From Trametes villosa (taxonomy: Eukaryota > Basidiomycota > Agaricomycetes > Polyporales > Polyporaceae), in contig PUDQ02000049.1 of NCBI GenBank assembly GCA_002964805.2, positions 62,001 to 126,000 on the forward strand: DNA of 64,000 nucleotides. Reading direction: 5' to 3'. Below are positions 7,365-60,107 of the stretch, one piece after another. The first letter of the stretch is position 1, and each line of letters begins with the position of its first letter. Below the pieces are notes generated by a model. That model made no database searches. It saw only the letters and a program-made list of their open reading frames with translations, and was not told the DNA's origin. The position numbers and the translations under genes are program-made.

Positions 7365-8545
7365 CAGCAGCTGTGGTAGTTCTGTTATAATACGAACCAT
7401 CAAATGGCCCAGAGCGCATTACATTAGGAACCCCTTAATATGTTCCCCCGCCGAAAGGCCCGGTCACCTGCTTAATGGGGCCAGTTCCGGCGGGTGGCTG
7501 CTTATCAGCCCCCGGACTCTTATCTCTCGTTGATAACAAGCTAATCTCATCTTTCCCAGGCTCCCGGACATGCAGATAGCGCGGGAACTCAGGCGCTTTG
7601 ACTCTCGGCTGGGCACCACCCTGATTAGGCAGGCTCACCTCTCACTAAGGCTGCACATAGGTCGATCCGTAGGTGATCTGGATCTGTACCTATAGGTAAT
7701 GGGAGATCATGAGCTATGATCTGGAACTGGGGTTGATCTGTCTTCTAGGTACCTGTGACCTAGTGATCTGTACCTAGTACCTACAGGTCGACCTATACAT
7801 GGTCTGTTTTGTGAATGCTGTACCAAGTTCGGGTCATAATAAGTCTCATACAATGTCTAAACACATTATGACAGCACAATAAGGTCTATATATAGCTTGG
7901 GTGCATACCACCAATCCACATGCCTTGAGATTTACAACTTTTGAGGCCAGATATTATGATTTTGCACCATCATTTGAGATTAAGTGAGTGGATGTATCCT
8001 ACAAACAGATCATGTAGGTCAATTAACCGGATCACAAGCCTTGATCCAGAGCTGGAGTCGATCTGCCATCTAGGTACCTGAACCTAGTTGACCTGAACCT
8101 ACAGGTTAATTTGCGGATCAGATCGGGTCGACCTATGCAGTGACCTGAACCTATGTGCAGCCTTACCTCTCACCTCTCCCTGGGTAGCTCTCTTCTTTGA
8201 TATCTCGCTCGTCTCTGGCCCGATTTGCCTGGCAAGTGGCTCTACTGGTTCGCATTGAATAGGTCTACCAGGATCTGCAAACACGGAGGCAATGTGGTAA
8301 GTACTGACATTGTTACGCTAGGTGCAACTAGCCCACATAGGGCGACGTGATCTGTGTGATAGCTCGCCCATTTTGCGTCGCCCCGAGGCGCGTGTGGGCT
8401 CCCCAGAAAGCGGCTGAAAAGGGCTTTCTGGCAAGCCCAGGCGGGCGCAAATTGACCCAGTGGTTGGGGTTCTGTGCTGCGCCCATCTAGGGCAGAAGCA
8501 CAGGCTCTCCTCCCTGGGTCAGATCTCGCTCAATTCTGCATGCAT
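7365..8545 (+). mobile_element. Truncated foldback-family arm, split by a hAT-type MITE
   Basis: Starts CAGCAGCTGTGGTAGTTCT, as does the foldback element at 47251, and follows its left arm: 'agcccagagcgcattacatta', 'ctgcttatcagccc', 'tctcggctggg', 'gattaggcagg'. After the MITE it continues with 'gcaagtggctc', 'tgtgggctccccagaaagcgg' and 'atctagggcagaagcacag'. Only one arm is present. It is non-coding and more diverged than the 47.3-kb copy. Confidence 0.7.
7646..8165. mobile_element. hAT-type MITE, copy 1 (520 bp)
   Basis: Terminal inverted repeat TAAGGCTGCACATAGGT at both ends and an 8-bp target duplication CCTCTCAC (7638-7645 and 8166-8173). A second copy lies at 54833-55360 with a different 8-bp duplication. 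The interior is full of 'acctagtgatctg' and 'ggtcgaccta' words and has no open frame of note. The 8-bp duplication and TIR type are those of hAT elements. The mobilising transposase is not in this window. Confidence 0.9.
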
Positions 8546-49874: not shown

Positions 49875-51914
49875 TCGATTCCGGAGTTCTTCTGGTAACT
49901 CCAGTACGTAGTTTGACGTACTGGGTATGCTTTCGATTATAGCATACGGTCCGATGTATTTAGGCACGAGCTTTCGTGCTCGGCCCTTAGGTATCGACAA
50001 ATTCTTTGTCGATAGGTATACCTTGTCCCCGACTTCAAAGTCGGGTTCGGCTTGCCTATGCTTATTCGCATAGTGTGTCTGGCGCACTCGCGCCTCGATG
50101 ATGGCATCGTGCGCCATCTCCAGGTTCGCCTTGGCTCTGAGTGCGAACTCTCGCACTCCTCGAAACGGAGTGTCCGTTCCGATTCCGTTCATAGAACGCG
50201 GGAGATACCCGTAGTTCAACTCGAACGGAGCGAACCCTGTGGTAGAACTTACCGCAGAGTTGATAGCGAACTCCGCTATCGGTAGCTTCTCATACCAGTC
50301 CAACTGGTCAGGAGCTACCAGTGCACAGAGTATCTGCGACACTGAGCGTATACTACACTCAGATAATCCATCCGTCTGTGGATGGAATGACGTAGACATA
50401 AGCAGCTTCGCCCCCATAAGGCGATGCGGCTCCTTCCAGAACTTGGAAGTGAACTTCGAGTCTCTATGAGAGACTATGGAGTCCGGTAGCCCGTGTAGAT
50501 GGACTACTTCCCTGAAGTAGACCAGCACCAGGTCTGACGCTGTGTCGGTTGTCTTGATGGGTATGAGGTGTACCATCGAGGTCAACCGACAGACTACAAT
50601 CCATATGTAGTCGTATCCGTGCGAGGGCGGAAACGGACCGAAGAAATCCATGGACATAGACGTCCATGGCACCGTAGGTATCGGTAGCGAATGTAACAGC
50701 CCTATAGGGGGCTGTGTACTTATTTTCGTGGTGTGGCACACGCCGCACGAAATGCAGAATACCAAAACCACTTGCGCACGTACTCTGACGTGCGCTGAGG
50801 TCCAAGGTGTCCAAGCGCGCTATGCGCTTGGTCTAACACGAGCTCTTGTAGTGCTCGTTTCCGATACAGACCACGAGGTATGCATAGTACCTCGTCGCCT
50901 TCGCGGTTCTTGGTGTATATCACACCCTCGCGCATTACGAATGCGCGATGCTGAGTAGGCCGTTCCAGTATTTTCTGGAACGTCTGGTCATTAACATAAC
51001 CTGACTTGACGGCTTTCAGAAAGCCGTCGTCTCCCTCTACCCAGACACGCAATGAGGGACCCGCAGAGAGCGAGTCCGACAGCGTCACATTGTCGCTGTC
51101 CGTGGGCGCTGCAGTTACCGAAACAGGTGCATGTGCAGCGTAACGAGCCGATTCTACGACTCGTTCCTCTATTGGTTCTTGCACGCGTGCAGCGTGCGTG
51201 TTTTCTGCTTCTAGCTGTGCGAGTTTCCGCGCAGATCGACGCAGGACTCGAGCTGCGCGTAGCTCGATGAGTCGGGAGAAGGGGAGATCATCCCCTTCAG
51301 GATCTAGCCGCAAGTCGGCGTTAACATAGTCGAAATCTTCGGCTAGTTCCTCTATGTCGTCGTGTTCGAAGTAGCGGGACAAACAATCCGCTACTTTGTT
51401 CAATTTACCTGGAATATAGGTAATCGTCTTGTTGAACCTCGACAAGAATTTGTACCACCGTATCTGACGGTGGTTAGGACGCTCGAGTCCCTCAAGGAAC
51501 TCGAGAGCTCTATGGTCAGTGACTATATTGAGTGTTCGTCCTATGAGCTTGTCCTCCCATTTGAACAAGCCTTCCATGATAGCGAGCGCTTCTTGCTCGT
51601 AGGTGCGATACACCCGTTGTGCGGACGTAAATTTCTTTGACAGGAACCCGGCTGGTCTGCAAGTTTGCCAGTCGGGTCCTTGCCCGTATAATGCTCTGAG
51701 TCCATACACGGACGCGTCACAGATCAACCAAATGGGATCTGTGGAAGCCGGATCTATCGGCTTCAGTATGGGCACCTTACACGCGAGTGCTTTGATAGAC
51801 TCAAAGCACTTGTCATGCAGTGCGTGCCATACGAACGGACGGTCGTTATGGACCATGTCCGATAACGGCGATGTATACGCCGTTACATCTGGCATAAAAT
51901 GTGCCAGATAGTTC
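49875..51914 (-). pseudogene. pol: gypsy pol: end of RT, RNase H, integrase core
   Basis: Minus strand, resuming after the nested transposon with the RT thumb region ('NYLAHFMPDVTAYTSPLSDM'), RNase H ('WLICDASVYGLRALYGQG', 'TYEQEALAIMEGLFKWEDKL', 'NIVTDHRALEFLEGL'), an H2C2-type linker ('ALGHLGPQRTSEYVRKWFWY', then 'CISCGVC') and the integrase core ('SMDFFGPFPPSHGYDYIWIV', 'STSFHPQTDGLSECSIRSVS'). A frame change lies near 50,755. The middle catalytic aspartate of the DDE triad is replaced by histidine ('IVSHRDSKF', codon CAT at 50466-50468). It ends '(R)NRRIP' where the foldback element was inserted. Confidence 0.92.
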
Positions 51915-51922
51915 ACTAGTCC

Positions 51923-52120
51923 TGGTCTCGTACCCTGACTTTGTAACTCGCACCCCGCCACTGCAAATACACGTCTGGGGCATTCCCACCGTGCCACCCC
52001 CCATGCCAGAAGGCGCCCGCAAAGCGCTCGTGTTCCTGAGCCGGGACAGCGGTGGCGAGATCGCGGTGGAGCGATGGGTTCCGGATATGGTAGCTACGCG
52101 CTCGCGCATTTCGACCGTCG
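51923..52120. repeat. Left 198-bp terminal inverted repeat
   Basis: Exact reverse complement of 58771-58968 except one base (CCCTGACT versus CCCCGACT near the tip). It probably holds transposase-binding sites and the promoter of the DUF6589-type gene. Confidence 0.97.
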
Positions 52121-52226
52121 CACCGTGGCGGCGTATCGTGCATGCCAGCATGTATAGCAGCACGTGTGAATAATGAGGAGGGGGAGAAATCGATAAGAAT
52201 TTTTCTATTCACCGTGCTCTACAACC

Positions 52227-55200
52227 ATGACAACCTGGGATGAGAATCGACCACGTTGGAGAACATACCAACAAGCCGAAGTGCGGAGAACAGCTCTGTT
52301 CACCAATGACGAAGGATCCGAGTCGAGTGCGGATGAAAGGGAGGGTGCCGAAGATGGGTATGGCCCTGGAGAGGAGGAGGACTCCGAAGATGGACTTGAG
52401 GAGGACGAGGACAGCGGGGAGACAAACGGGTGTCCCGTTCTAGAGGATGAGTACTCGGATGCTGGAGATGGTACTGTGCCAAGCGAAGGGACACTGCCAG
52501 GGAGTGATGCATCTGGTCAGCACACAACACTGCGAGAGTGCATGCAACAGAGCTCAGATAAGCTAACGTACCACTTTGGCAGAGTCAGCTCATAGCCGTC
52601 TGGCAGCGTCGGTCACGCGCGTCCTCAACGTGATTTCAGATGAAGGCTTGACGGTCGGACGCTTCCTAGAAGCATTCAGTTGGGGAGATGCGAGCTGTAC
52701 TGCCGACAAGCGGATTGGGAACGCACGTACCCGATTCATGCAAGGCAAGGAGCTCCCGCGCCTATTGAAGACGTGGTGGAAACCGCCGCGGTCCTCGAAG
52801 TCCCACAAGTCACGGCCAAAGGGCGGGCACGACGCGCTTCAGGCTTTTGCAAAGGCGGCGGTGGTGGAGACTGTCGAGAAAGAGTTACGAGCCATCGAGC
52901 CGTTGCTTCGCTCCACAGACGACGCTCTCTCGAAGGATGACCTAGTGCGTCTTCGTATCAACGAGCTCGAGGACGAGATGCACCTCCAATCCCCGATGCT
53001 TTGGTCAGTCCTAGAGAGTGTTTGCATAACACCTCGTCAGCGACGGGACCAAGTTAAGAAGGACCCTAGCAAGGTAAGAACACTTGCCTCTTGGTCGAGT
53101 GAGTTGTAAAGTAATTGTACTGTGGTTATCATGCAGGTTATCTTGAACATTATCTCCTCAATCACGTACGTCCGCTCGCAATACTGCAACCGGCTTCAGC
53201 GCATCCTCGCGGTCTACTTCAAGTTCAAGGGACTTACCGCGAAGGGATGCGACACCCTGCACGCCCTCGGCATTACCATGAGCTCCAAGTGGACTACGAA
53301 CGCTGTCGCGAAGATCTCGGACGAGACCATGAAGGAGGTCGAGGTGTTGATCGACAAACACGCATCCCTTCTGTCCTACGACAACGTCTATATGTCGTTT
53401 CGGGTCTTCTCACAGCGCATTGAGAAGAAGGACTCACCGGCGGCCGGGACCGCTGCCACCGTCTACATCAAGAAGGACACGAATCCTCCAGGACCTGAGC
53501 TCAATCGCACCCTCCAGGAGAAGAGACGGGTGGGGATGGAGGATCCGATCACTGCCCTAGACGTGGTGGAGCTTGCGGAGAAGAGCGAGGCGGACATCAC
53601 CCGGTTCAAGGTGTTCCACGTCCTGCAGGCACTCCTACAATCGGAGGACTTCGATTTCGAGTCATATGCCCACCGCAAGAGTGAGCTCTTCAAACCTCCC
53701 ACTCCTGTAGATGAACTCCCTTGCGGCCCCGACCACATCACACTTCAGTACATGCTCGGAACACTTCCGACACCCGAAGCAACTTACGAGGACAACGACA
53801 AGGTTCTTGCGGAGCTCATCAAGCAACTGGGATGCAAGAGTGTGGCTGATCTGCAAAAGATAAGCCTCGAGTGCATCCTGTTCGTCGTAGGGGACCAGCT
53901 CACCGTGGACCGAATCCGCGGCCTGCAACAGCTTCTGTGTCAAGAACGGAACTCGTATGAGCGCCTCAATGTCGTCCTCCCTGTCTTTGGGTGGCTCCAT
54001 TTCCAGATGGCGTTCGCGAAGTCTCTACACAAGCAATACTTGGGCACGGACGCGGGAGCGGGACTGAAACACGTGTTTACCATGCTGCAGCGAAAGGGCC
54101 TCAACAAGCGTGCTACCCAGGGTCCCTTCCACGACAATCTCGAGCATGCGCTGTACGACGTCTTGCAAGCGCACCTGCAGGTCTGCTGGAAAACGGCCAG
54201 CGGTGTGGCTCAGCTCAAGGACCTTAGAATGAGGACACCAGAGGAGCTTACCGTTTTGGCGAAGGAGATCGTCGAGGGGTATGCATCGACGCAAGCGATG
54301 ACCAATCTTCAGCATGCCGAGCACGTTGACAAGGTCCTGGTTCAGCAGACCATGTTCCTCCGCGACGTCCTCCTCTATGTGGTCCTGGATCGTGCGATCA
54401 GATATGGCAACGTGGGCCTGATGGAAGGAGCTCTACCTCATACACTGCTGCGCTTCGCCGGTGGAAGGAACTCAAACTACACGACAGAGTGCCTCGAGTT
54501 GCTTCAGGGACTCCATAGGGAGTGGCCGCCCGATGTCCGGTATGTGCCTGCACGTAATGTAACACGGATGTAACACTGACGTCGGGCACTGCAGTGACTA
54601 CTTACGGAGGCACTGTTGGTTAAGCAACACGACGGGCAAACGCGACGGGTTTACAGCCATTGATCGTGCCCAAGAGGCTCGCATCAAGGACATCAAGGTA
54701 GCTATCTAGAAGTATCACAGATATGAGTATGATCTCAAACCATTGAGCTAGGTCACTCACCGTTCACAAGGCCCGAACGTCGACTGGGCCTACCTGAAGA
54801 AGCTGCATCCAGCGATACCTGTCATTCAAGCGTAAGGCTGCACATAGGTCGATCCGTAGGTGATCTGGATCTGTACCTATAGGTAATGGGAGATCATGAG
54901 CTATGATCTGGAACTGGGGTTGATCTGCCTTCTAGGTACCTGTGACCTAGTGATCTGTATCTAGTACCTACAGGTCGACCTATACATGGTCTGTTTTGTG
55001 TATGCTGTACCAAGTTTGGGTCATAATAAGTCTCATACAATGTCTAAACACATTACGACAGTACAATGAGGTCTATATATAGCTTGGGTGCATACCACCA
55101 ACCCACCAACCCACATGCCTTGAGATTTACAACTTTTGAGGCCAGATAGTATGATTTTGCACCTTCATTTGAGGTTGAGTGAGTGAATGTACCCTACAAA

Positions 55201-55722
55201 CAGATCATGTAGGTCAATTAACCAGATCACAAGCCTTGATCCAGAGCTGGAGTTGATCTGCCATCTAGGTACCTGAACCTAGTTGACCTGAACCTACAGG
55301 TCAATTTGCGGGTCAGATCGGGTCGACCTATGCAGTGACCTGAACTTATGTGCAGCCTTATTCAAGCGGTGTCTCACCACGTCGAGGATCAGTTCAAAAC
55401 CTGGACCCGCTATTCGCGTCACACCAGCCCACGGGACGCTAAAGGGATCAAATTGCTCTTCGAAACATACAGCGCGGTGAAGCTACATGAACGGGACCCT
55501 AACGGCCGGAAAATCGAGCGGGAGTCAGAACAGACATCGGACATATACAACCTTGGCTTACAGACCTTGGGAAGACCCATGGCGCGCTGGATCAATGCCC
55601 GATGCCTGCCGCGCGCTACAACAGAGGAGTGGGATACGGATGGACAGGGAGGTAGTGAAGGAACAGACAGTGATGAGGAGGCTAGAATGGACGTCGATGA
55701 AAACTCCTCGGATGAGGAGTGA
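52227..55722 (+). pseudogene. DUF6589-type putative transposase, interrupted by a MITE
   Basis: Exons 52227-52515, 52583-53073, 53137-54539, 54595-54697 and 54752-55722 (with MITE plus one target copy 54833-55368), all joined by GT...AG introns in frame, would give about 906 residues. The N-terminus is acidic. The DUF6589 core has 'CNRLQRILAVYFKFKGLTAK', 'SYDNVYMSFRVFSQRIEKKD', 'ILFVVGDQLTVDRIRGL', 'VFGWLHFQMAFAKSLHKQYL', 'LRRHCWLSNTTGKRDGFTAI' followed by 'DRAQEARIKDI', and an acidic D/S tail. The conserved DN, GDQ and QE positions could be a DDE-type RNase H active site; this is my inference. Apart from the MITE I see no lesion. The MITE adds stops, so the present copy is broken unless it excises. 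Confidence 0.8.
54833..55360. mobile_element. hAT-type MITE, copy 2 (528 bp)
   Basis: TIR TAAGGCTGCACATAGGT at the left; the right end reads TAAGGCTGCACATAAGT. 8-bp target duplication TTCAAGCG at 54825-54832 and 55361-55368. Closely similar to copy 1 at 7646-8165. It sits in the last exon of the DUF6589-type gene, between the codons for 'PVIQA' and 'VSHHVEDQF'. Confidence 0.95.
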
Positions 55723-58707
55723 GATCCGGGTTCAGCGCTGTAGACATCGAGTTCGCATGGACAGGCGGTTGAGGGTGTTCGGGGAGGCGAGCTGTTGTTT
55801 CCAGACAGTTAGACAAGCGGTCACTCAAACTCGAATACAAACATACCTTCCGAGCATGGCTGAGGGTTGTTGCTAGGGCCACGGAGGAGATGTGCAAAGA
55901 GCGAAGATGGGAGGCTTGATGTGGCAGGTACAAGAGGCATGGATTCGACTGGCAGCGCGTTAAGATCACGAGCAGAGGCCATGGGGTGCGCGTGTAAGGC
56001 CGTAGATGGCATGATACCAGGTGCACCGCCTGCAGCCGCGGCGGCAGACTCAGGGTACGGATGCCGTGTTGCTCCACGGCGCAGGATGAATAGCGAATCC
56101 TCCTGGTCAATCTCTCCCTAGACAACACCGCGTCAATGTCTACCCGTGCGCACAAACGCAGACAGCGTACCTGTCTGGTCAAGGGGGAACACCTGTCGGC
56201 TGCTTCTAATGCTCCATCCAGAGGGCCGCGGCGGCGCGGTCGTGGTTGCACGCGCTGCTGATGAACGTCCTTATCGTGCCGGCCATACTCGTGCCCTGCC
56301 GGAGCTCCGATGGATGTCGACGGGCCAGGGAGTGGGCTATAGATGGGGTGGTGCGCAGGGATGGAGAGGGGAACCGGGATATTCTCTTGTTCCTCCGGGC
56401 GCGTTGTCGAAGATCGAGGGCGCGATGCCTTTGCCAGCGCGGTTCGAGCAAGCGCTGCAGCAGTATACCTGGCATCCACAGCCCGCAAGACGTCGAGAAC
56501 TCCGGCGCCATGCCGAGCAGCAAAGATCCAAGGGGGGTCGACGAGCTTGGCAGTGATGTCGGCGACGGTCGAGAGTGTGGCGTCATGAACGAGAGACGCG
56601 ATCATCTTGTCGGACAGCAAACCTGCTTCGCTGAAGGATGTCCTCTTATACCGTACGCGGATCGTGCGCAATTGCCAGTCGCGCAGCGCGGACAGGGCGG
56701 CCTTGCGGTGCTCCCCTGTACGCACCAGACGTACCGGTGCACCCTGGACAGGGTGACTATGGGCGGGGACTCCATGCTCCGCGGTAGGCCTCATGGCGGC
56801 TGGAGGGGATGTGGTATGATCGGCGCCTGAGCGTGTGCTCGTGTTGCAGTGCCGTTTGTTGGATACCAGGATGCCGGAAGACGGGGAACGGGCTCGCTTG
56901 TTCGAGGGTGTGGAGGGGCCTGCCAGGCTGGGTGGAGGGAGCGAGGGAAGAGATGCTTTGGCCGGCGGCGCCGCATGGGACAGCAGAGAAGCTGCATGGC
57001 ATCTGTCACAACAGTGGCTTCTTGATATCTCTAGAGATCCCATATACGGACATTACAGCATTAATATAGATCCCGGAGTAACATCAGAACTGATAGAGCT
57101 AGACGAACCCGTGTTCTGCGCGTGACGCAATGGATTGTTGAAGTATTCATCGGCAGCCTCGCGCCTGCAGCCGTCCGCGTTCAACCAGATGCGCAGGGCG
57201 CTCTCGACCCTTTTCCGGTACTCGGGCGGCGTCACTGCGGCGTTTGCATTACCTACTTCGGACTGCTTCTTATGATTCGGCGTGGTCTTCTTCGCCTGCT
57301 CCCTGGGTTCCTTTCTGCGAATGATTTGAAAGGCCGACTTCTCCACCAACAAGGTAGCCCGTGCCCTCATGTTTGGTGATCGACCCGCTCTCCCCGCACG
57401 CTGTATCCACGTTGTCAGAGACGTCGGCGCCCCAAACTGGATGACATGAGCTATATCCGGGATATCTGCCCCCTGGAGAGTTGCCTTAGCTTCCGGCCTC
57501 CGAGATCTAATGTGGAAGAATGAACGCACCATGCCGACGGCCTCCGTTGCAACTAAGATTCTGACCGTCCCCTCCGTGAACCGCCGCATAACACTTCGCC
57601 GCTTGCGTTTCCGGCGATAGGCGTGGAGGAATTCAATGGGCCGGTGCCCTGTGAACGGGACATGCAGCTGCTCAGATCGATATCACCAAGCGAATAGAGT
57701 TGTGTTCCGGGAATTCGAGAATACGATGGTTTTGGGGATGTCGGCGGGCCGGGTCACACTGCGGAGCGGGAGTACTTGATCCAACGCCGCATAGTCCCGC
57801 CCATTCTCCATCAGAGCGACCTCCTGACAGATGTTCGAGCGGTCGTTCCCTAGGTTGAGATAGAAAGACGAGGCCGGGTCAATCTGCAAGCTCGTTTCGA
57901 CCTCTTCGAGGACAGGCGGAGCCATCGTCGCGGAGAGTGCTGCTATGGGCGCCCTGCAAGGTATGAATGTTCTCAGCTTACTGAGCTCCGCATAATCGGG
58001 GCGGAAGTCGCCTCCCCACTGCGAGATACAGTGGGCCTCATCGACTATGAACCCCGAGAGACCCCGTTCCAAGCCCACACCACGCAAGACGTCCCGCACC
58101 TCCGCGTGTCTGAGGCACATCTCCGGGCCCAGGAAGAGCGCGCGGTATGTAGCTGCCGAGATTGCCTATGGTAATGAGAGTGTTTTCTGAGCAAAATCGT
58201 CAGCAACGTACACGCCCGACGCACCTTGCCGAGCTGCTTGGTCCACGTGTCTTGATTGAGCGGTTTTGCTGCTACCCCGAGTTTATTGAACCTAGCGGAC
58301 TGATAGAATGTTATTACACATCCCACCTGTCTGTAAACAGGATTTGAACACACCTGATCGTGTTGAAGGGCTTTTAGAGGCGAGATAATCGCCGTAGTTT
58401 TCCGGGAGTTCTGAGGCAGCAAAAGCGGCAGCAAGTAAGGGATTGTCTTGCCCGAACCAGTGCCGGCGATAACAAGACAGTCTAGCCCTAGTAGTAGAGC
58501 CTCGGCGACGTCGAGCTGCCAAGGATACGGTGTTTTTCCGCCAGTAGCACGCTTGAAGTTCTCGACCATGAGACTGCGTGTAGTAGACGAGCTGTAGCCA
58601 GCAGACAAGGCGGCCTTTTGGCGAGCGTTCTCGAGATTTGTTTGACCCAGGCGCTGTCGTTTGTTGTTGGCAAGAGCCTTCCTGATGTAAGACTCCGAGT
58701 GCGGCAT
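55682..58707 (-). CDS. RecQ-like DEAH helicase of the transposon
   Basis: Minus strand, ATG at 58707-58705, about seven exons with 20-60 nt introns. SF2 motifs in order: I 'VIAGTGSGKTIPYLLPLLL'; Ia 'IISPLKALQHDQ'; II 'GFIVDEAHCISQWGGDFRPD'; III 'ALSATMAPPVLEEVE'; IV 'KTIVFSNSRNTTLFAW'; V 'ILVATEAVGM' spliced to 'GADIPDIAHVIQFG'; VI 'WIQRAGRAGRSPN'. The RecQ zinc-binding part follows ('WLNADGCRREAADEYFNNP', then after an intron 'HCCDRCHAA'), then a C-terminal domain ('AGLLSDKMIASLVHDATLST', 'GVLDVLRAVDARYTAAAL') like that of other basidiomycete RecQ-type helicases. The open frame runs to 55682, overlapping the tail of the opposite gene by about 40 bp; the real end may be earlier through splicing. 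I see no stop or frameshift that introns do not explain. Likely role: unwinding or end processing during transposition. Confidence 0.82.
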
Positions 58708-58770
58708 GTTTTACGAGGAAGCGTACACAAAGGTCGGCGTAGTACGACACAGAGTCGCGTCGCGACGCGC

Positions 58771-58968
58771 CGACGGTCGAAATGCGCGAGCGCGTAGCTA
58801 CCATATCCGGAACCCATCGCTCCACCGCGATCTCGCCACCGCTGTCCCGGCTCAGGAACACGAGCGCTTTGCGGGCGCCTTCTGGCATGGGGGGTGGCAC
58901 GGTGGGAATGCCCCAGACGTGTATTTGCAGTGGCGGGGTGCGAGTTACAAAGTCGGGGTACGAGACCA
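58771..58968. repeat. Right 198-bp terminal inverted repeat
   Basis: Partner of 51923-52120 with one mismatch. It is adjacent to the helicase start codon and probably holds its promoter. Confidence 0.97.
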
Positions 58969-58976
58969 ACTAGTCC

Positions 58977-60107
58977 GAGGAACCGCTGCACCTTGTTATA
59001 CGAGCGAGGTGTCCGCCAGTTCCTGATACGGCTCATCTTGTCCGTATCGGCGTGTAGTCCCTTGTCATCTATTCGGTGACCGAGGCAATCCAAGTCTTTG
59101 GAGTATAAGTCGCACTTGCTGCGGCTTAGGAAAAGCTTCGCCTATCGAAGCTTTTCGAACACTATCCTTAAGTGTTCTTCATGCTCCTCCTTGGAGTCCG
59201 AAAATACGAAAATGTCGTCCAAATATACATGGACGAACCTTCCGATACAGTCACGAAATATGGCTGTCATGAGACGTTGGAACGTGGACGGGGCGTTGGT
59301 GTCGCCGTGTTGCATGACCTCGCTCACGAACGTCCCGTAAGGCGTCGCAAACGCGGTCTTCCACACGTCCTCCGCAACTATGCGGATCTGTTCGTAGGCG
59401 TCGGACAGATCAATCTTCGAGCGATACTTCGCTCGAGCAACGTCCATCCGGATCTGGTCTTGATCCGGAAACGGTGTCAGGTCGTGCACCGTGTTCTGGT
59501 TTCGTTGTCGCGCATCGAGTACGGTGCGCAGCTTGCCATTCTTCTTGGCAACGCATAGCAGGGGCGCTGCTTGCGTGACCGTTACCGGTCGCCACCAGCC
59601 TGCCTTTACATAGTGATTGATTTTCGCTATGAGTTCTGGCTTCACCACGTCCGCGCAACGTGGGAGATGATAGCGATATTTCTTCGCTTCATCGATGAGC
59701 GGGATATGGTGGTTGATCTCCCGGAACGGTGGGAGATGCTCCAGCGCGGGACGTATAATGTCCTCGGTGGCCGCATACCAGCGGTCACGAAGAGCTTTCA
59801 GCTCCTCCTCTTCCTCGTCTATGACGAACCCAGCGTGGGTTCGTCGGATCTGTTCGTCTTCCCACTGCTCCTTGGCTATCTTGTCCAAAAGCTCATTGAT
59901 GCCGTATGGGTCCTCGTACCCATACTTGTCCCTTCTAGGACCTCGCGACGATTGCATCGTCGGAATGAATTTTTCGCCAATGTTTGGCGGCGAGCTATCT
60001 TTGGCTCGCCCTTGGTGTCGTTCAGGAATCTTAACGGTTTCTACACCGTTCCCTCCCCCTCCTGACGACCCTCCGGACTTGTCGTAACGAGAGTGGGGAG
60101 GTTCCAC
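58977..60107 (-). pseudogene. pol: gypsy pol: reverse transcriptase N-terminal part
   Basis: Minus strand, ATG at 60107. N-terminal leader with 'KFIPTMQSSRGPRRDKYGYE', then RT blocks 'PLIDEAKKYRYHLPRCADVV', 'KNGKLRTVLDARQRNQNTV', 'RSKIDLSDAYEQIRI', 'FATPYGTFVSEVMQHGDTNA' and the catalytic 'HVYLDDIFVFSD' (YLDD at about 59213-59224). An in-frame TAG at 59142-59144 ('FEKLR' then 'AKLFLSRSKCDL') is followed by 'DCLGHRIDDKGLHADTDKMS' and 'VQRFLGL', where the nested transposon was inserted. The sequence continues at 51914. It starts in another frame 25 bp after the gag-protease stop. Confidence 0.93.

Follow-up and report, generated by a model that had tools for sequence, protein, structure and literature searches.

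The window analysed here, a stretch of 64,000 nucleotides from contig PUDQ02000049.1 of Trametes villosa, holds a two-gene element of 7,046 bp at positions 51923-58968, which is very probably a decayed DNA transposon of the cut-and-paste type from Agaricomycetes (Table 1). Its two genes converge: the plus strand encodes a DUF6589 protein, which would act as a DDE transposase, and the minus strand encodes a RecQ-like helicase, which would be the second gene of the transposon itself. Such an interpretation is founded on insertion with target site duplication at several places, on the presence of two genes per unit in four elements, on purifying selection acting on both genes and on a predicted DUF6589 fold of transposase type with conserved D, D and E. 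That DUF6589 is the catalyst, that movement goes by cut-and-paste and at which step the helicase acts are inferences from these data.

The element, its insertion site and its second copy

An earlier reading of the same DNA (the original prediction below) had described 198-bp terminal inverted repeats with one mismatch, an exact 8-bp duplication, ACTAGTCC, and two convergent genes for a DUF6589 protein and a RecQ-like helicase. All of this holds, with the mismatch lying at position 14 of the repeats. Within each terminal repeat (51923-51956 on the left, and likewise at the right end), two similar stretches, CTCGTACCC and CTCGCACCCC, start at positions 5 and 25; it is possible that they are tandem binding sites of the transposase.

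The element interrupts a Gypsy-type retroelement in its reverse transcriptase, and when the flanks are fused without the element and one copy of the duplication, the reverse transcriptase frame reads through. A query of 200 bases from the fused flanks matched 24 other places of the 46.7-Mb genome over its full length at 96-99% identity, while seven weaker matches lay at 75-78% and one partial match at 73% (35 rows in total, among them both flanks of the element and a half-match). At each of the 24 places the same Gypsy target stands empty; none is an excision footprint. As for the host retroelement itself, which surrounds the element at about 50720-60107, at least 24 further places with 96-99% identity over 200 bases point to its young expansion.

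The genome search with the 198-bp repeat, which gives lower bounds on the number of copies, returned five places: both ends of the window element, both ends of a complete second copy on contig C10 (copy 2), and one lone end on contig C1. Both genes of copy 2 are open, encoding a DUF6589 protein of 913 residues and a helicase of approximately 790 residues. With this second copy, its perfect repeats and duplication of its own, and with the 24 empty sites, the claim that the repeats delimit a mobile unit is borne out. The lone end at C1:5307624 (L005, L008) is a diverged stretch of about 107 bases at 87-88% identity, and a search of the surrounding 9 kb gave no partner end.

Coding regions of the window element and copy 2 are 74-76% identical, the repeats are 90-91% identical, and the synonymous distance is about 1 to 1.5. 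Conservation of the repeats thus exceeds that of silent sites, which suggests that they matter over their entire length; alternatively, gene conversion may have kept them alike. The ratio of nonsynonymous to synonymous substitution rates, a rough measure here with the proportion of synonymous differences near saturation, was 0.082 for DUF6589 exons 2-6 (bootstrap range 0.057-0.109), 0.240 for the acidic first DUF6589 exon (0.159-0.608), 0.113 for the helicase core (0.081-0.146) and 0.255 for the helicase tail (0.186-0.357). Such values indicate that purifying selection acts on both genes.

Table 1. Features of the window element and related elements on other contigs of the genome
Feature	Position	Strand	Remarks
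Target site duplication, left copy	51915..51922		ACTAGTCC; exact 8 bp, repeated on the right
Left terminal inverted repeat, 198 bp	51923..52120	+	197/198 identical to right repeat; about 90% to copy-2 repeats
DUF6589 gene, candidate DDE transposase	52227..55722	+	PF20231 match; exons from comparison with copy 2
DUF6589 modelled exons	52227-52503, 52583-53073, 53137-54539, 54595-54697, 54752-55722	+	Last exon interrupted
Conserved D codon, first candidate catalytic residue	53380..53382	+	SYDN; D in 48/50 rows
Conserved D codon, second candidate catalytic residue	53893..53895	+	GDQLT; D in 49/50 rows
Two conserved E codons (54487-54489, 54496-54498)	54487..54498	+	E in 49/51 and 47/51 rows
Lesion: inserted 528-bp repeat, short inverted ends	54833..55360		In last DUF6589 exon; own 8-bp duplication TTCAAGCG at 54825-54832 and 55361-55368
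RecQ-like helicase gene	55682..58707	-	DEAD and Helicase_C matches; exons delimited against copy 2; motifs also conserved among fungal relatives
Helicase modelled exons	58707-58354, 58299-58225, 58165-57530, 57472-57083, 57028-55682	-
Lesion: in-frame TGA in helicase	57683..57685	-	Sense codon at the matching place in copy 2
Right terminal inverted repeat, 198 bp	58771..58968	-	Pairs with left repeat
Target site duplication, right copy	58969..58976		ACTAGTCC; exact 8 bp
Copy 2	C10:1626479-1632902		6,424 bp; identical 198-bp repeats; 8-bp duplication GGCGTGTG
Two-gene element	C34:188029-194178		Ends TAGTCTCGT, alike in 11 of first 12 bases; simple-repeat 9-bp duplication ACGCGCGCG
Two-gene element	C3:3364841-3371052		Ends CAGGCTCCTACCC; 9-bp duplication CTCCGAGAC; stops in DUF6589 frame
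Helicase-only element, 2.2 kb	C16:635718-637878 (L058, L062)		TAG-type ends; 9-bp duplication AGTACGGAC

The candidate transposase and the helicase

Exons of both genes were modelled by comparison with copy 2 and by GT..AG limits, so that the models rest on sequence without transcripts; the first DUF6589 intron, having many alternatives, is the least certain. In hmmscan, residues 141-475 of the plus-strand open frame matched DUF6589 (PF20231) with an E-value of 1.2e-88. The best fold matches of the predicted DUF6589 models were the transposases of hAT elements (Hermes) and of the P element. It is also important to note that candidate catalytic D, D and E residues are conserved in the alignment of proteins with this transposase-type predicted fold. 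The third catalytic residue may be either of the two glutamates listed in Table 1, and their stretch sits in a helix that follows a helical insertion in the predicted model. A G-x-x-H motif has its H in 49/50 aligned rows, which may, in our reading, correspond to the C/DxxH motif given in PMC9587614. Overall, predicted fold and conserved acidic residues make it likely that DUF6589 proteins are DDE transposases, which would give this family a function, as the original prediction had put it.

The P element also duplicates 8 bp of its target. The same length is given for hAT elements in PMC12730594. The differences are no less clear: identity in the fold alignments is 6-11%, and hmmscan of the DUF6589 frame at E-values up to 1 returned solely DUF6589 and a weak UBA_6 match, with no hAT or P family. 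Nor do we know of any helicase in hAT or P elements. A comparison of the DUF6589 profile with PDB chains by sequence gave no match at E-values up to 1. The proteins closest to the DUF6589 protein of copy 2 come from polypore fungi (64% identity in Ganoderma, 62% in Polyporus), and all named protein matches belong to Agaricomycetes, among some 8,000 scored candidates sharing most words, which does not show absence elsewhere. A viral link of DUF6589 was considered and rejected: among viral proteins, the top fold match was one of hAT type from Pandoravirus (E 1.3e-3), and when viral contigs were scanned with the DUF6589 alignment, none of the 72 pattern matches was confirmed.

The helicase of copy 2 gave Pfam matches to DEAD (1.5e-20) and Helicase_C (3.3e-20), together with a sub-threshold Cas3-like C-terminal match, and its top PDB sequences were RecQ, WRN and BLM. 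The superfamily 2 (SF2) motifs and the RecQ zinc region that the original prediction ascribed to the helicase of the window element are present, the latter as RecQ-type cysteines, and conserved in relatives. The Walker K occurs in 67/68 rows, the D, E and H of motif II in 71, 70 and 71 of 71, the S, A and T of motif III in 65/71, 71/71 and 72/72, and the Q of motif VI in 72/72, its three R in 71/72 each. The same is true of the RecQ loop (W 69/69, F 70/70, R 69/70, Y 70/70); the first zinc-region cysteine is found in 69/70 rows, and the other three in 51/57, 46/51 and 46/47. All these features, namely the SF2 motifs, the loop and the four cysteines, are also those of cellular RecQ, WRN, BLM and RECQ5. 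Unlike them, the copy-2 helicase scores under the curated cut-off of recQ_fam (E 1.4e-56; 192.3 bits against 219.8), its Pfam search found no RQC, HRDC or RecQ zinc model, and its tail is long and weakly conserved. Moreover, it belongs to a branch apart. A quick tree was built from 69 rows, namely copy 2, 51 of 71 fungal helicases, 16 further RecQ matches from the same search and one RecQ-like fragment of the T. villosa genome. In it, the 52 rows of the fungal set formed one side of a branch with SH-aLRT 91, the nearest other row being P0231 on a long branch.

Pairing of the two genes and sister elements

The original prediction expected DUF6589 and helicase genes to recur together between such repeats, and relatives show that they do travel together. 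In the T. villosa genome, 32 DUF6589 rows collapse into 16 loci and 50 helicase rows into 33, and a helicase row lies within 5 kb of 13 of the 16 DUF6589 loci (0.1 expected). Eight of these pairs are convergent and five divergent; two have weak helicase partners, at C1:3260088 (23% identity, E 1.6e-6) and C10:3148258 (E 7.8e-5). Two divergent units on C43 (39939-41714 and 48142-49917), with equal scores and 8,203 bp apart, represent either a tandem duplication or an assembly repeat.

In other species, two overlapping DUF6589 protein searches gave 91 and 97 matches, and the helicase search gave 325, among whose 120 listed matches 71 are fungal helicases (P0157-P0227, one from a metagenome contig). 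Among these listed matches, 25 of the 71 share a contig with a DUF6589 match, that is, come from the same species and an equally long contig, against about 1.8 expected for random DUF6589 matches on 50-Mb genomes. Eleven of the 25 pairs are on contigs of at most 100 kb; seven are on contigs above 1 Mb, where sharing does not show closeness. Five pairs carry adjacent locus tags (EVJ58_g2763/2764, EVJ58_g5445/5446, EUX98_g4409/4410, EUX98_g4512/4513 and NLJ89_g10340/10341). Protein distances of the two partners correlate across the 25 pairs (r = 0.72; 0/5000 permutations as high), with the nearest neighbour shared in 15/25, and part of this correlation could come from shared host phylogeny. For the fungal helicases beyond these 25, the status of transposon helicase is presumptive.

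RecQ genes are common cellular genes, and three DUF6589 loci (C3:2925811, C1:4726352 and C14:822838) have no helicase within 5 kb, so one might suppose that the helicase is a host gene captured between the repeats as a passenger, without any part in transposition. We consider this very unlikely in view of the purifying selection on the helicase between copies, its pairing with DUF6589 in many species, its separate branch in the tree and its catalytic motifs, kept almost without exception across up to 72 rows.

The elements on C34 and C3:3364841 are also two-gene units. Limits of C3:3364941-3370949 were initially considered for the latter and replaced by those in Table 1, where the duplication was found. 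Duplication length thus varies between families: these two have 9 bp, the window element and copy 2 have 8. The element on C16 holds the helicase only and, if it moved in this form, would have done so in trans.

A search for the pattern of the shared ends with at most one mismatch gave 55 forward and 52 reverse matches; the reversed pattern gave 29 and 24, and about half of the matches may therefore be due to chance. Inverted pairs of ends less than 1 kb apart are a different matter: 15 were counted by eye in the listed places against 0.06 expected. The flanks of nine of these short pairs were read, and exact duplications were seen at five (8 bases at one, 9 at four); in the remaining four, read by eye, three have 8/9 bases alike, and the one on C134 has an 8-base repeat displaced by five bases. 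Exact duplications have 8 bases at TGG-type ends (window, copy 2, C58) and 9 at TAG-type ends, with the exception of a 60-bp TGG-type element on C3, whose 9 bases include one mismatch. Ends were searched for and not found at the divergent loci C43 (both), C25:49255 and C3:3753778 and at C27, and the sole candidate end on C2, matching at 9/12 bases, was not trusted.

Movement, decay and relation to known transposons

In the scenario that we favour, the DUF6589 protein would bind and pair the 198-bp inverted repeats, cut the element out and join it to a target cut with a stagger of 8 bp, or of 9 bp for the sister families. During or after cutting, the RecQ-like helicase might unwind strands at the ends or act in gap repair at the donor or target. 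Movement of the P element relies on the host BLM helicase for repair, and it is on this example that the repair role suggested here is modelled. That the helicase is directly involved in movement or in its repair has, in our estimate, about even chances. Replicative movement (copy-out or copy-and-paste), with the helicase as a replication helper, would also fit a transposon that encodes its own helicase and a genome that has 16 DUF6589 loci. We hold such a route to be unlikely, keeping in mind that the repeat search recovered no more than two complete copies plus a lone end (lower bounds; circles and junctions were not looked for).

The original prediction considered the element complete and saw no lesion in the helicase, which did not hold. 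The last DUF6589 exon is interrupted by a 528-bp repeat, of which 16 other full-length or nearly full-length copies exist in the genome at 94-96% identity. Its ends read TAAGGCTGCACATA, and it is also present at window positions 7646-8165 (C49:69646-70165). A GT..AG donor and acceptor pair in the ends of the insert would allow in-frame removal of most of it, adding four residues; with such splicing possible, this lesion is likely, not certain, to inactivate the gene. The in-frame TGA of the helicase, as judged against copy 2, is the only clear-cut lesion. The window copy has probably lost autonomous mobility; with its ends intact, it could be moved in trans.

Helicase-bearing fungal transposons are already known, namely AcademH and KolobokH. 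According to PMC9587614, KolobokH is a fungal DDE transposon with a RecQ helicase, and Kolobok elements duplicate TTAA and have RR..YY ends. A RecQ-type helicase is present here as well (under the curated recQ_fam cut-off); on the other hand, duplications are of 8-9 bp, none of ACTAGTCC, GGCGTGTG, ACGCGCGCG and CTCCGAGAC is TTAA, and the ends begin with TGG, TAG or CAG. We therefore rejected a KolobokH identity as extremely improbable.

The case of AcademH, which the original prediction named as the nearest known lineage, is less simple. AcademH belongs to the Academ superfamily and occurs in fungi and animals. PMC10045372 ascribes to AcademH a helicase and duplications of 9 or 10 bp. Helicase-encoding AcademH elements are described as low-copy in Basidiomycota, Ascomycota and Mucoromycota in PMC10799480, and PMC6416283 reports DEAD and recQ_fam domains in fungal Academ copies. 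A helicase within a DNA transposon is found here too, as a separate gene convergent to DUF6589, and the sister families on C34 and C3 have 9-bp duplications. It is fairly probable that our element is a plain member of AcademH, whose transposase would then go under the name DUF6589 in Pfam, and that only the link between the names is new. Against this stand the exact 8-bp duplications of the window element, copy 2 and one short relative. We conclude that the element is probably AcademH-like, in a comparison made by description, yet we do not file it as a member, because the 9-10-bp duplication is not found in the window element and copy 2. As the nearest known lineage, AcademH is plausible.

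It is tempting to suppose that DUF6589-RecQ elements make up a superfamily of their own, apart from Academ, in which a RecQ-type helicase is the obligate partner of a DDE transposase with ends of about 200 bp throughout Agaricomycetes. We regard this as rather doubtful; if true, the large DUF6589 family would conceal a reserve of transposases and of host genes derived from them. In the literature searched, we found no paper naming DUF6589, and our results offer a testable function for a fungal Pfam family so far labelled as unknown. With two genes, long defined ends, empty sites and short relatives, these elements also provide a system in which to ask why some DDE transposons carry a RecQ-type helicase.
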